This document shows positions 42,855 through 64,000 of a stretch of DNA of 64,000 bases, one piece after another (the first letter of the stretch is position 1; every line of letters starts with the position of its first letter). The DNA is from Algoriphagus yeomjeoni. GTDB taxonomy: Bacteria; Bacteroidota; Bacteroidia; Cytophagales; Cyclobacteriaceae. The position numbers and the translations under genes are program-made. The stretch covers positions 248,001 through 312,000 of the forward strand of contig NZ_QLLK01000005.1 in assembly GCF_003259505.1 (NCBI RefSeq), written 5' to 3'. The notes under the pieces are model-generated. The model worked only from the letters and a program-made list of their open reading frames with translations. It had not been told where the DNA came from and made no database searches.

Positions 42855-44309
42855 ATGCAAAAGTTAAATCTTAGCCAATCACTTTCCCAGAAGCTTTCAC
42901 CTCAGCAAATACAATTTATCAAATTGCTGCAGGTGCCGACAGCCGAATTGGATACCCGAATCGAAGAAGAACTCGAGATTAATCCTGCGCTGGAAGAAGG
43001 AAAAACAGAAGAAAAGGATAGTGCGGAGGAGGAATTTGATGATAACTATGAGGAGGAGCCTCTAAAAGATGACCGCGATGTAAATATAGATGACTACTTA
43101 GATGATGAGTATGGAGGCTATAAAATGCAGGGCGATGGCAATTACAATGCAGATGAGGAGGATAGAGAAATCCCTATTTCCAGTCAGTCATCACTTCACG
43201 AGCAGCTCGTGTCACAATTAAGTTACCTCAAGTTAGATGATAGAGAAAAGATCATTGGGGAGCAGTTAATTGGTAGTATTGAGAATGATGGGTATATCCG
43301 TAGAGATTTAGAGGCCATAATTAATGACTTAGCATTCAGCCAAAATATTGAGACCGATATTGATGAGCTAGAAGAGATTTTGAGAAAAATTCAAAATTTT
43401 GATCCTGCTGGAATTGCCTCGAGAAATCTTCAAGAGTGTCTTACTATACAGCTTGAGCGCAAAGAGCATCCGGATGACCCAACGGTGCAAAATGCACTTA
43501 GGATTATGCAGGATTGCTTCGATGAATTCACCAAAAAGCATTATTCGAAAATTCAGAAGCGTTGTGATCTGAGTGATGAGGAGACCAAAGAAGCAGTTAA
43601 TTTGATTACTAAACTGAATCCAAAGCCAGGAGGAGTGGCGGATGGCTTAGTTCGGACACAATACATCATTCCGGATTTCATGCTGACCAATACTGCTGGC
43701 AAATTTGAGATCAGCCTAAATTCTAAGAATGCACCGGAATTAAGAATATCCAGATCTTATTCTGAGATGTTTGACGCTTACGATAAAAGCGATAAGAAGG
43801 ATAAAAAACTGAAGGAGACAGTCACTTTTGTCAAGCAAAAGCTAGATGCCGCCAAGTGGTTCATTGATGCTATCAAGCAAAGACAGAATACTCTTTTGAG
43901 AACCATGGAGGCTATTCTTCAATATCAAAAAGAGTTTTTCATTGACGGTGATGAAACCAATCTTCGTCCCATGATTTTGAAGGATATAGCGGAGAAAATT
44001 GATATGGATATTTCTACCGTTTCACGAGTGGCAAACAGTAAAGCGATTCAGACAGAATTTGGAGTTTACCCACTTAAATACTTTTTCTCCGAAGGAATAG
44101 CAACTGATAGTGGCGAAGATGTGAGTAACCGTGAAGTGAAATCTGTTCTTCAAGGAATGGTAGATGCAGAGGATAAGAAGAAGCCACTTTCGGATGATAA
44201 GCTGGTCAAAATGCTAAATGCTAAAGGCTATAATATTGCGAGAAGGACTGTTGCAAAATATCGTGAGCAACTCCAAATCCCTGTAGCTAGACTAAGAAAA
44301 GAATTGTAG
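42855..44309 (+). CDS. rpoN: RNA polymerase sigma-54 factor
   Basis: A 484-aa alternative sigma factor. Region I (1-50) has QSLSQKLSPQQIQFIKLLQVPTAELDTRIEEELEINPAL, as usual for binding enhancer-activator ATPases; region II is acidic (EEEFDDNYEEEPLKDD). The core-binding and HTH parts include LKDIAEKIDMDISTVSRVANSK, and the RpoN box ARRTVAKYREQL is close to the C-terminus. It directs RNA polymerase to -24/-12 promoters. The next gene starts at a GTG overlapping its stop. Confidence 0.96.
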   Translation: MQKLNLSQSLSQKLSPQQIQFIKLLQVPTAELDTRIEEELEINPALEEGKTEEKDSAEEEFDDNYEEEPLKDDRDVNIDDYLDDEYGGYKMQGDGNYNADEEDREIPISSQSSLHEQLVSQLSYLKLDDREKIIGEQLIGSIENDGYIRRDLEAIINDLAFSQNIETDIDELEEILRKIQNFDPAGIASRNLQECLTIQLERKEHPDDPTVQNALRIMQDCFDEFTKKHYSKIQKRCDLSDEETKEAVNLITKLNPKPGGVADGLVRTQYIIPDFMLTNTAGKFEISLNSKNAPELRISRSYSEMFDAYDKSDKKDKKLKETVTFVKQKLDAAKWFIDAIKQRQNTLLRTMEAILQYQKEFFIDGDETNLRPMILKDIAEKIDMDISTVSRVANSKAIQTEFGVYPLKYFFSEGIATDSGEDVSNREVKSVLQGMVDAEDKKKPLSDDKLVKMLNAKGYNIARRTVAKYREQLQIPVARLRKEL

Positions 44310-61020: not shown

Positions 61021-61106
61021 AAAAAGAAGCGGCATCGCACCGCTCAACCACCTACCCTTGCTTCCTTCCGGACCTGGGGGATTCAGCAGGAGCTGGTCGT
61101 GCCGCC
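61021..61106 (-). ncRNA. ffs: Bacterial signal recognition particle RNA (4.5S RNA)
   Basis: On the minus strand the conserved SRP domain IV hairpin is present: GGTCCGGAAGGAAGCA followed by GGGTAGG (around 61052-61075), the Ffh-binding loop. Both ends pair: GGCGGCA at the 5' end with TGCCGC near 61029-61034, and a T-run follows. About 86 nt, the small SRP RNA type. Its 5' end agrees with the promoter at 61111-61140. Confidence 0.93.
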
Positions 61107-61110
61107 GGTG

Positions 61111-61140
61111 CAAAAGTAAGGAGAATATTAATCTTTACAA
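61111..61140 (-). promoter_or_regulatory. Promoter of the SRP RNA gene
   Basis: On the minus strand: TTG (61140-61138), exactly 19 nt, TACTTTTG (61118-61111), a perfect TAnnTTTG; the RNA begins about 5 nt later. Confidence 0.75.
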
Positions 61141-61707: not shown

Positions 61708-63120
61708 ATGACTCATATAAAATTACCTGTTTTAACTACTTACAGAAAGCGATTGGCGGATACGATCACTCCGGTAAGTATTTATCTTCAGATTCGGGAT
61801 CGTTTTGCGAATCCTATTCTGCTGGAGAGTTCTGATTATCATGGGCAGGAAAATAGTTATTCCTACATCTGTTTTAACCCATTGGCTACTTTCAGTTTCA
61901 ATGCCGGAGAAGTTAAGGAGACCTTGCCTCTTGGGCATTCTGTATCTTATAAAGTGAGTTCGGATCAAAAGCTGATGGAAAGTTTGAGGGCTTTCGGGAA
62001 TAAGTTTGATACAGCTCAGGATAAATTTAAATTCAGCTCCAATGGGCTTTTCGGATACATCCAATACGATTCAGTAGCATATTTCGAAGACATCAATCTC
62101 CAGAATACAAAGCCGTCTGACGTGCCCATGATGCAATATTCGGTCTATCAGAATATCATCGTTGTGGATCATTATAAAAATGAGCTGCACTTATTGGAAC
62201 ACCGTGTGGCAGGAGCTGAGAATCCGGAATTAATGGATGAGATCGAGCGCTTACTTTCTAATAAAAACATCCCAAGCTACTCTTTTAAGAGGGTAGGAGA
62301 AGAAAGCTCTAACTACACGGACGAAGAGTTCTTAAAGATTCTGAATCAAGGTAGGGAGCATTGCTTCAAGGGCGATGTGTTCCAGATTGTACTTTCAAGA
62401 AGGTTCTCTACAGGCTTCAAGGGTGACGAGTTCAACGTGTATCGCGCCCTTAGGTCTGTTAATCCATCCCCTTATCTATTCTACTTTGACTATGGTTCCT
62501 TCAAGGTTTTTGGAAGTTCTCCAGAAGCTCAGATTGTAGTAAAAGATAAACGAGCAACAATCTTTCCTATAGCAGGTACTTTCCGCCGAACCGGGAATGA
62601 TCAGGATGATGCGGTTTTAGCACGTAAACTTTATGATGATCCTAAGGAAAATTCGGAGCATGTCATGCTGGTAGATTTGGCGAGAAATGACCTGAGTAGA
62701 TCATCTGAAAAAGTCAGTGTAGATGTATTCAAAGAGATTCAATACTATTCCCATGTCATTCACTTAGTATCCAAAGTGACTGGAGAATTACCAGATGGAA
62801 CAAATCCACTTCAGTTAGTAGCAGACACCTTTCCGGCCGGCACACTTTCCGGAGCTCCTAAATACAGAGCGATGGAGCTGATAGACGAGTTGGAGAATGT
62901 TTCTAGAACATTCTACGGCGGAGCAATCGGCTATTTGGGATTCAATGGAGACTTCAATCACGCGATTTTGATCCGATCATTTGTGTCTGAGAATAATCAA
63001 CTTCGGTTCCAAGCAGGTGCAGGTGTTGTGGCTAAATCAACCATACCATCCGAGCTGCAAGAAGTCGCAAATAAACTGGAAGCGCTACGAGTGGCATTGC
63101 GGGCGGCGGAAGGAATTTAA
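61708..63120 (+). CDS. trpE: Anthranilate synthase component I
   Basis: A 470-aa chorismate-utilising enzyme making anthranilate in tryptophan synthesis. N-terminal part (~1-190) as in TrpE (LPVLTTYRKRLADTITPVSIYLQIRD opens the Trp-binding barrel with the LLES-type string ILLESSDY near residue 40). C-terminal chorismate domain: GDVFQIVLSRRF, FYFDYGSFKVFGSSPEAQI, FPIAGTFRRTG, NSEHVMLVDLARND, FPAGTLSGAPKYRAMELI, YGGAIGYLGF and QAGAGVV, all complete. The LLES segment and the leader peptide suggest feedback and attenuation control. trpG follows after an inserted small gene. Confidence 0.96.
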   Translation: MTHIKLPVLTTYRKRLADTITPVSIYLQIRDRFANPILLESSDYHGQENSYSYICFNPLATFSFNAGEVKETLPLGHSVSYKVSSDQKLMESLRAFGNKFDTAQDKFKFSSNGLFGYIQYDSVAYFEDINLQNTKPSDVPMMQYSVYQNIIVVDHYKNELHLLEHRVAGAENPELMDEIERLLSNKNIPSYSFKRVGEESSNYTDEEFLKILNQGREHCFKGDVFQIVLSRRFSTGFKGDEFNVYRALRSVNPSPYLFYFDYGSFKVFGSSPEAQIVVKDKRATIFPIAGTFRRTGNDQDDAVLARKLYDDPKENSEHVMLVDLARNDLSRSSEKVSVDVFKEIQYYSHVIHLVSKVTGELPDGTNPLQLVADTFPAGTLSGAPKYRAMELIDELENVSRTFYGGAIGYLGFNGDFNHAILIRSFVSENNQLRFQAGAGVVAKSTIPSELQEVANKLEALRVALRAAEGI

Positions 63121-63154
63121 TTGGAAAATTGCAAGATTTTAAAATTGGAAAATT
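63119..63154 (+). repeat. AT-rich repeat block upstream of the four-helix-bundle gene
   Basis: TTGGAAAATT occurs at 63121-63130 and again at 63145-63154, with GCAAGATTTTAAAA between. The same unit recurs in reverse orientation beyond the gene at 63552-63586, so the two blocks look like terminal inverted repeats. Confidence 0.6.
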
Positions 63155-63541
63155 ATGGCAAAATACGAGCGATTTGAAGATTTACCAGTTTGGCAGCACG
63201 CTATTAGAATAGGAGTGGGAATATATCAATTAGTGGAATCTGAAAAATTAGCCAAAGACTATCGTGCCAAAGATCAATTAATAGGATCTGCAATTTCGAT
63301 TTCAAATAATATAGCAGAGGGCTTTGAATATAATAGGAATCGTCAGTTTATCCGATACTTAGAAATATCCAAGGGGTCTGCTGGTGAGCTTCGAAGCCAG
63401 CTTTTCTTGCTTCTTTCAGTTGGCAAAATAGATAAAGGAGCTTACCAAGCATACTACTTAGACTTAGTTGAGCTATCCAGTGAATTAAAAGGTTTAATCA
63501 AATACCTAAATGAATTTGAAGATAAAAAAAAGAAAAGTTGA
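63155..63541 (+). CDS. Four-helix-bundle protein (23S rRNA intervening-sequence / Avd-like family)
   Basis: A 128-aa basic protein. FEDLPVWQHAIRIGVGIYQLVES is the family opening (F-x-x-L-x-V-W-x-x-A), then LIGSAISISNNIAEGFEYNRN with the core IxxNIAEGxxR string, FIRYLEISKGSAGELRSQLFL, and a final LIKYLNEFEDKKKKS. Relatives are encoded inside 23S rRNA intervening sequences and as the accessory protein (Avd) of diversity-generating retroelements. Here the gene sits in the trp operon, 34 nt after trpE, and is flanked by inverted AT-rich repeats. No reverse transcriptase or template repeat is nearby. Confidence 0.87.
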   Translation: MAKYERFEDLPVWQHAIRIGVGIYQLVESEKLAKDYRAKDQLIGSAISISNNIAEGFEYNRNRQFIRYLEISKGSAGELRSQLFLLLSVGKIDKGAYQAYYLDLVELSSELKGLIKYLNEFEDKKKKS

Positions 63542-63551
63542 TGACTCTGGT

Positions 63552-63590
63552 GAATCTTCCAATTTTTCAATCTTCCAATCTTTCAATTAA
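63552..63590 (-). repeat. AT-rich repeat block downstream of the four-helix-bundle gene
   Basis: On the minus strand: ATTGAAAGATTGGAAGATTG, then AAAAATTGGAAGATT, repeats of a (G)ATTG-R-AA-R unit matching the upstream block in inverse orientation. It ends just before the trpG ATG at 63596. Confidence 0.6.
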
Positions 63591-63595
63591 TTAAA

Positions 63596-64000
63596 ATGAA
63601 AATACTCGTCCTAGATAACTACGATTCCTTCACCTACAACCTGGTCTATATTGTCAGGCAACTTGGTTATGGAGCTCAGATGGACGTTTTCCGAAATGAT
63701 AAAATCTCTTTGGAAGACGTGGATAAATATGACAAAATCATTCTATCTCCTGGACCTGGAGTACCGGAAGATGCTGGGATTATGCCTAAGCTATTGAAGC
63801 AATATGCATCCAGCAAATCAATTCTTGGGGTTTGTCTTGGACATCAGGCGATTGGTGAAGCTTTTGGCGGTGATTTGATCAATCTCTCTGAGGTGCTTCA
63901 TGGTGTCGCTTCTAAGGTAAAAGTCTCTGATGATTTGCTTTTCAAGGGCGTTCCCGATACTTTTAGTATTGGTAGGTATCACTCTTGGGTCATTAATGAA
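63596..64000 (+). CDS. trpG: Anthranilate synthase component II (glutamine amidotransferase), 5' part
   Basis: At least 135 codons, running off the right edge. MKILVLDNYDSFTYNLVYIVRQLG, ILSPGPGVPEDAG and GVCLGHQAIGEAFGG (nucleophile Cys of the class I GATase) are all present; HGVASKV and FSIGRYHSWV follow the known order of TrpG/PabA. It supplies ammonia from glutamine to TrpE. The next trp gene is presumably beyond the window. It is separated from trpE by 475 nt holding the four-helix-bundle gene and its repeats. Confidence 0.95.
   Translation, partial: MKILVLDNYDSFTYNLVYIVRQLGYGAQMDVFRNDKISLEDVDKYDKIILSPGPGVPEDAGIMPKLLKQYASSKSILGVCLGHQAIGEAFGGDLINLSEVLHGVASKVKVSDDLLFKGVPDTFSIGRYHSWVINE

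Follow-up and report, generated by a model that had tools for sequence, protein, structure and literature searches.

Genes of the IVP/S23 family ("23S rRNA-intervening sequence protein") are known from the intervening sequence (IVS) of 23S rRNA in Salmonella, Leptospira and Coxiella, where the open reading frame lies within terminal inverted repeats able to pair, the elements are sporadically distributed and horizontally transferred, RNase III removes them from the rRNA, and the host RNA is functional (PMC4990558). In the RAYT/REPIN systems (REPtrons), a gene for a Y1 (IS200/IS605-like) transposase is enclosed by inverted short repeats, gene-less copies of the palindromic repeats are dispersed, and RAYTs are described as vertically inherited (PMC8049555, PMC3116915). 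Imprecise intergenic tandem arrays of 7-bp units, the cyanobacterial STRRs among them, sometimes arranged as convergent inverted pairs, form a further group. The heptamer GGGAATC occurs in Xanthomonas as ~70 convergent inverted pairs per genome in two genomes (PMC4692102), while intergenic arrays of TAACTGA have also been published (PMC4679880); these arrays were described without a link to the IVP/S23 family (PMC4692102, PMC4679880), and with no gene or mobility mechanism. Avd proteins of diversity-generating retroelements (DGRs), and homing introns and homing endonuclease genes, provide two additional points of comparison.

The element considered here is a 475-bp cassette, consisting of a 5' arm, an IVP gene and a 3' arm, which fills the gap between trpE and trpG in Algoriphagus yeomjeoni. 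It was found in a window of 64,000 nucleotides, the whole stretch of DNA that was analysed, to which all coordinates refer unless otherwise indicated. The cassette resembles the 23S rRNA IVS in its protein family, in an open reading frame set within terminal inverted repeats able to pair, and in its sporadic distribution, horizontal transfer and functional host. Unlike the IVS, it lies between the protein genes trpE and trpG, and its ends are tandem arrays of 7–8-bp units that are lineage-specific; since it is not in rRNA, it is not a 23S IVS. As in REPtrons, a gene stands within inverted short repeats and gene-less repeat copies are dispersed. Unlike REPtrons, the cassette carries a PF05635 gene in place of the Y1 transposase gene, and is for this reason not a REPtron, its arms are tandem arrays where REPINs have palindromes, and it moves horizontally. 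The published heptamer arrays, in their imprecise tandem and sometimes convergent inverted arrangement, are of the same type as the arms of cyanobacterial S23 genes; here such arrays form the ends of an IVP cassette. The IVP shares the fold of Avd, but the locus is without reverse transcriptase, template or variable repeat, and the cassette is not a DGR. Like homing introns and homing endonuclease genes, it shows one lineage per site, same-site spread across species and short co-converted flanks; unlike these, it has neither a nuclease domain nor a self-splicing RNA, with an Rfam scan giving no intron match at the locus and no rRNA match in the window. Of these systems, the cassette is closest in its proposed workings to an IVS, here set in protein-coding operons and with tandem-array ends and site-specific spread.

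Structure of the cassette in the trp operon

The trpE, IVP and trpG genes are co-oriented (Table 1), with trpG extending in the full genome as an open frame of 202 aa. The 5' arm starts at the stop codon of trpE and, besides the arms and the gene, the trpE-trpG interval comprises only the 11 nt that separate the gene from the 3' arm and the 5 nt between this arm and trpG. In a preliminary sequence-only reading of this DNA, a gene of the Avd-like/23S-rRNA-intervening family had been placed between trpE and trpG, bracketed by repeats of a ~10-bp unit in opposite orientation. The family assignment was confirmed by profile searches (PF05635, 91.9 bits against a cut-off of 33.8; TIGR02436, 89.9 bits against 24). 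The opposite orientation likewise stood, with the 5' arm matching the reverse complement of the 3' arm without gaps over 38 nt (score 46; maximum score 30 in 2000 dinucleotide shuffles), while the 10-bp unit was rejected in favour of a period of 8. The 5' arm is composed of ATTGGAAA-ATTGCAAG-ATTTTAAA-ATTGGAAA-ATT and the 3' arm, read reversed, of ATTGAAAG-ATTGGAAG-ATTGAAAA-ATTGGAAG-ATT. No transposase is present at the trpE-trpG site, as had been noted, and the PF05635 gene is the sole gene in the insert. Elsewhere in the window, a Small SRP RNA (RF04183, 69.9 bits) is found on the minus strand at 61022-61112, ~600 bp upstream of trpE, and a short stretch with a 7-bp period, TCAAAATGCTAAATGCTAAAGGCTATAA, at 44206-44233.

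Table 1. Features of the trpE-trpG region in the Algoriphagus yeomjeoni window
Feature	Position	Strand	Evidence
trpE, anthranilate synthase component I; intact host gene upstream of the cassette	61708..63120	+	PF00425 256.6 bits, PF04715 104.5 bits
5' arm, ATTGRAAR units (8 bp) in an imprecise tandem array	63117..63154	+	Sequence; inverted match to 3' arm
IVP / S23 / four helix bundle protein gene, 128 aa	63155..63541	+	PF05635 and TIGR02436 profiles; AlphaFold2; fold matches
3' arm, ATTGRAAR array in inverted orientation	63553..63590	-	Sequence; inverted match to 5' arm
trpG, anthranilate synthase component II; host gene downstream of the cassette, truncated at the window end	63596..64000	+	PF00117 114.1 bits

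The predicted product of the cassette gene is a member of the IVP family. Its AlphaFold2 model is a confident helical bundle (pLDDT 94.9), and the nearest folds identified with Foldseek are the four-helix bundles of the IVPs 2gsc and 2rld (E 1.8e-5; TM 0.79/0.87), both of which are matched by sequence too. Next among the fold matches is Avd, both alone (4dwl) and in the DGR reverse-transcriptase particle (8ub7), with a TM-score of 0.71-0.75 by query length at an identity of ~13%; a relationship between IVP and Avd has been noted previously (PMC10053308). With 20 K+R against 18 D+E residues the window IVP has no more than a slight basic excess. Purifying selection acts on the IVP genes, the median dN/dS being 0.05-0.21 by site, with few pairs available at some sites.

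The trpE-trpG junction among Algoriphagus genomes

A search for TrpG covered 72 genomes of the genus, and 70 junction loci were read. Clean junctions without the insert, which the sequence-only reading had proposed to look for, are found in 33 of these, and the gene is thus not a constant feature of this site in relatives. Sixteen junctions contain a type A cassette, eight a type B cassette and eleven remnants (truncated genes, solo arms or scars), while two were unscorable. Two of the 33 empty gaps measure 17 and 45 bp; the others lie between an overlap of 4 bp and a spacing of 13 bp. Type A IVPs are 67-100% identical to the window IVP, with some broken by stops or frameshifts, and type B IVPs 50-57% identical; the arm unit on both sides is ATTGRAAR with type A and GTTGNAAR with type B. 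On the TrpE+TrpG tree the empty, A, B and remnant states are intermixed among sister species, with at least 16 state changes, or 20 where remnants are assigned to their own type. For example, the genomes G025, G024 and G012 have type B, type A and empty junctions, respectively, at 93-95% trpE identity.

Some junctions are layered: at L085 the tail and 3' arm of an A cassette lie downstream of a B cassette, and at L095 a full A cassette is preceded by a B 5' arm. Copies truncated at the 5' end (L081, L022 and L024) and at the 3' end (L027) also occur. The presence of empty sites, two IVP types, remnants and a recent cassette-only transfer between species (see below) lends good support to the earlier view of a small passenger whose entry leaves operons unbroken. 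Target-site duplications, which the sequence-only reading had also proposed to look for, were not seen when empty and filled junctions were compared, the short spacer being diverged or replaced.

A spacer, ACCTATTGAACC, is common to many empty gaps (L046, L080, L082, L086, L099 and others) and absent from filled gaps; together with the stop codon it reads TTGAACC-TA-TTGAACC, a small heptamer repeat. At the trp junction of G002 (L028), a gene-less inverted pair, GACACAGAGGG...CTCTGTG, is nested in the type A 5' arm region.

Horizontal transfer and site specificity

The 475-bp inserts of the window species and of G070 share 98.5% identity, as compared to 85.8% for trpE and 84.0% for trpG. The tract of low divergence extends from 18 nt before the end of trpE to 45 nt into trpG, with 7 mismatches over 538 bp. 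Synonymous sites and arms are as similar as the rest of the insert, and constraint on the protein therefore cannot explain its identity. Across pairs at the trp site, IVP identity is uncorrelated with that of the flanks (rho 0.02 and 0.14), while the identities of the trpE and trpG flanks are correlated with each other (0.33). Pure vertical inheritance with losses was rejected on the basis of these uncorrelated distances and of the excess insert identity. Such excess is also seen at other sites (95 vs 82-84% and 91 vs 77-78%), whereas sites 2, 5 and 6 look more, and largely, vertical, so that rates differ between sites.

Among the 72 genomes, all homologues more than 50% identical to the window IVP adjoin trpG. 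Where a junction is counted as the same if both flanking genes are homologous, the proportion of IVP pairs in the genus which share a junction increases from 0.4% at 30-40% identity to 77% at 60-75% and 94% at ≥75%. About 30 IVP sites were found in the genus, with other junctions recognised from translated flanks including sufB-sufC (L011) and, by eye only, ffh-folD (L018). The trp IVP lineage also stands beside trpE and trpG in Belliella, Aquiflexum, Cognataquiflexum, Mariniradius and a MAG named Chitinophaga. Each IVP lineage is thus bound to a single site, which the sequence-only reading, partly supported as a whole, did not foresee. By these sequence comparisons the cassette behaves as a mobile, site-specific unit, in which arms and gene spread horizontally together.

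Inverted arms at other IVP genes

All ten IVP genes of the A. yeomjeoni genome have adjacent short imprecise tandem arrays, mostly inverted, with that of L014 appearing direct. The unit differs at each locus (AAGTATC, GATGTCG, ATTTGAA, GTTAACN, AATCCCT and GGTTGTT, among others). For 133 IVP genes of the genus the median inverted-flank score is 31, compared to 16 for flanks taken from mismatched loci and 17 for the direct orientation; control medians are 16 both for 283 other genes of the own genome and for 277 genes of two IVP-less genomes. The 87 IVPs from other genomes and plasmids score 32 against 17. Chance similarity of AT-rich arms was rejected by the shuffles, the mismatched pairs and the control genes. 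Between about a third (genus) and less than half (others) of the IVPs do not exceed the 95th percentile of the mismatched scores, which points to decay of the arms or, in some cases, their absence.

Within one site the unit is retained while copy number and order vary. Among elements at different sites, arm similarity increases with protein identity (Mantel r 0.37; 0/1000 permutations), same-site pairs having been excluded by flank similarity, which may miss some. At 50-60% protein identity, different-site pairs share arms in sense in 20% of cases and in antisense in 1%. Arm sharing also crosses phyla, including L345 (Marinilabiliaceae) and L361 (Zambryskibacteria; taxa as titled in the records). 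Arms and protein lineage vary together across phyla, and cassettes of this kind, each with a unit of its own, are present between genes in many bacterial phyla.

Of 62 sampled IVPs, 57 have co-directional genes on both sides and are in sense with them, against 41/78 small genes (Fisher 2.5e-7) and 284/553 background genes (7e-11), in a non-random set fetched with the trp IVP as query and with partly non-independent sites; in the genus this arrangement occurs at 18/24 sites. The computed arm-arm RNA duplex is stronger than in shuffles in 12/13 trp cassettes (z -2.4 to -5.7), with an in silico z of -3.6 for the window element.

Gene-less arrays and GxxExxY genes

A pattern of two consecutive ATTGRAAR units followed by ATTG has 0-52 matches per genome, including 14 in A. 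yeomjeoni, while the reversed control pattern has none in any genome and two near-complete IVP-less genomes contain no ATTGRAAR arrays. A strict link between the number of these arrays and the type A gene was considered and found to be weak, with arrays in several empty-junction genomes and none in some type A genomes. In a de novo scan, three heptamer arrays were found in 400 kb of the own genome and none in 390 kb of IVP-less genomes, both small counts. At leuC-leuD, gene-less arrays are present in most of the relatives read and the gap is short in five, and L003 is an inverted array pair without a gene. Repeats thus do occur without the gene, at leuC-leuD and elsewhere, which taken literally is what the sequence-only reading had named as counting against itself. 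Given that all IVPs of the genome have such arrays and control genes do not, the gene-less arrays are read here as solo or gene-less derivatives of cassettes, from which they would have descended.

Two further features accompany these arrays. The leuC gene is often shorter beside them (~463 vs 482-495 codons; L369-L398), as if array insertion had replaced its end. A REP-like palindrome, TCCGCCACGGCGGACAAGT, is found inside ATTGRAAR arrays of several species, at leuC-leuD (L370, L371, L372 and L394) and in a trp 3' arm (L038), the arrays being targets of another small repeat. Elsewhere in the A. yeomjeoni genome (L166:13620-14072), a small protein which by eye resembles a RAYT-type (Y1) transposase has REP-like palindromes on both sides.

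Inverted arrays scoring at least 28 flank 10/22 genes of the GxxExxY family (PF13366), compared to ~5/560 control genes. These genes, of the PD-(D/E)XK superfamily (L153:12102-12497, equal to L271, and L248-L277), have a different unit per locus; one site seems to be common to L265, L271 and L276, and there too the units differ.

Cyanobacterial arms and CRISPR neighbours

Inverted heptamer arms also flank several S23 genes of cyanobacterial plasmids, with units such as GGGAACA (Nostoc), GGGAAAA (Geminocystis), GGGTGTA (Calothrix) and GGTGACA (Anabaena 90). For 17 such genes, about half without clear arms and a few near-copies of each other, the median score is 22 against 16 for mismatched flanks (p 1.5e-4). 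By the kind of sequence, these arms may be equivalent to the classical short tandem repeats (STRRs), the imprecise heptamer arrays of cyanobacterial intergenic DNA. IVP cassettes may then account for these so far unexplained repeats.

IVP genes on cyanobacterial plasmids also separate cas6 from cas4 and cas10 from cmr3 (L280, L286 and L402). The IVP has been listed among CRISPR-linked domains in a survey (PMC10910872), and is the commonest domain of candidate DGR immunity sets (PMC10053308). The position of the plasmid IVPs between cas genes suggests that the CRISPR association may be hitch-hiking. A literature search in which most subscription journals lay outside coverage, and which is accordingly weak evidence, returned no report linking IVP or GxxExxY genes to such arrays.

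Mode of spread and alternative explanations

The element is probably a small site-specific mobile cassette which occupies an operon gap in sense orientation, spreads horizontally between species at that gap and from time to time becomes established at a new site. That the inverted arms mark the ends of the cassette is well supported. The co-inheritance of the protein with arms of its own unit indicates that the IVP most likely recognises arms; that it would be made from the operon transcript and bind arms of its own kind is a step on which our confidence is evenly balanced. Similar weight is given to the prediction, based on analogy and computed pairing, that the cassette is transcribed with the host operon and that its arms pair into a stem in the transcript. 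Such pairing would allow the insertion to be tolerated with host genes intact, as for the IVS in rRNA, and by the same analogy RNase III might cut at the paired arms in the cell. More tentatively, entry into an empty or older allele could proceed by host recombination or by copying (cDNA), guided by flank homology and helped by an arm-protein complex. Several observations stand against the cassette reading: the insertion enzyme is not encoded in the cassette, a target duplication was not seen, about a third of IVP genes score no higher than the 95th percentile of controls, the IVP is barely basic, the gene-less arrays do not closely track a matching IVP, and some sites (2, 5 and 6) look largely vertical.

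The strongest rival for spread at an existing site is passive homologous recombination, by which A, B and empty alleles would be exchanged through DNA uptake and recombination in the conserved flanks and lost by deletion, with no present mobility. The 18 nt of trpE and 45 nt of trpG included in the transferred tract are as expected of such exchange, composite junctions could be recombinants within arms, and site-specific lineages would follow automatically. However, flanks of 84-86% identity are poor recombination substrates, and this explanation accounts neither for new sites nor for protein-matched arms: the matched inverted arms at many unrelated sites, the sharing of sense-oriented arms among related IVPs that occupy different sites and belong to different phyla, the dispersed gene-less arrays and the sense bias are all left unexplained. 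As a full account it is considered rather unlikely.

Movement as a non-autonomous, MITE-like transposon, in trans by a transposase which recognises the arms, would accommodate the inverted ends, gene-less copies such as L003 and the dispersed arrays. It is nevertheless improbable, given that no target duplication and no transposase with such ends were seen, that the ends are imprecise arrays which differ at every site, and that a single site per lineage is untypical of transposons. Still less probable is a retro-element whose transcript is copied by a reverse transcriptase in trans, with the IVP in an Avd-like role. The fold shared with Avd of the DGR particle, the sense bias and the 5'-truncated copies are in keeping with it, but 3'-truncated copies occur too, and a strong reverse transcriptase as an obvious mobiliser was rejected, the sole RVT_1 match in the A. 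yeomjeoni genome being weak (30.6 bits, in a 1106-aa frame; L278, G000:C2:92965-93348) and located on contig C2, with the window on C5. Lastly, the IVP gene could be a normal member of the trp operon that serves the host (e.g. as a regulator), is inherited vertically and has been lost in some lineages. This would fit the purifying selection and the trp lineage at this site across the family, but is scarcely credible and, as a full account, by the sequences already contradicted, with an insert far more similar between species than both flanks and uncorrelated with them in distance, A, B and empty states among sister species, and a like arrangement at ~30 unrelated sites in the genus.

Significance

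On the cassette reading, two things that have lacked an explanation, the many S23/'four helix bundle' genes located outside rRNA and the short tandem arrays seen in Bacteroidota and cyanobacteria, become parts of a single element that can be tested. The trpE-trpG junction, with empty, A, B and remnant alleles in sister species, provides a system for studying how an element without a recognisable enzyme reaches one site. Where an IVP gene neighbours CRISPR or reverse-transcriptase genes, it may be there as a passenger. It is conceivable, somewhat short of probable, that IVP genes with inverted short-unit arms form a widespread and previously unrecognised class of homing elements in bacterial operons, whose Avd-like protein, itself non-catalytic, reads the arms of its own lineage, and that cyanobacterial STRRs and other dispersed heptamer arrays are the ends and remnants of these and of a parallel GxxExxY class. 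If it is true that such ends account for STRRs, the class would merit a name of its own.
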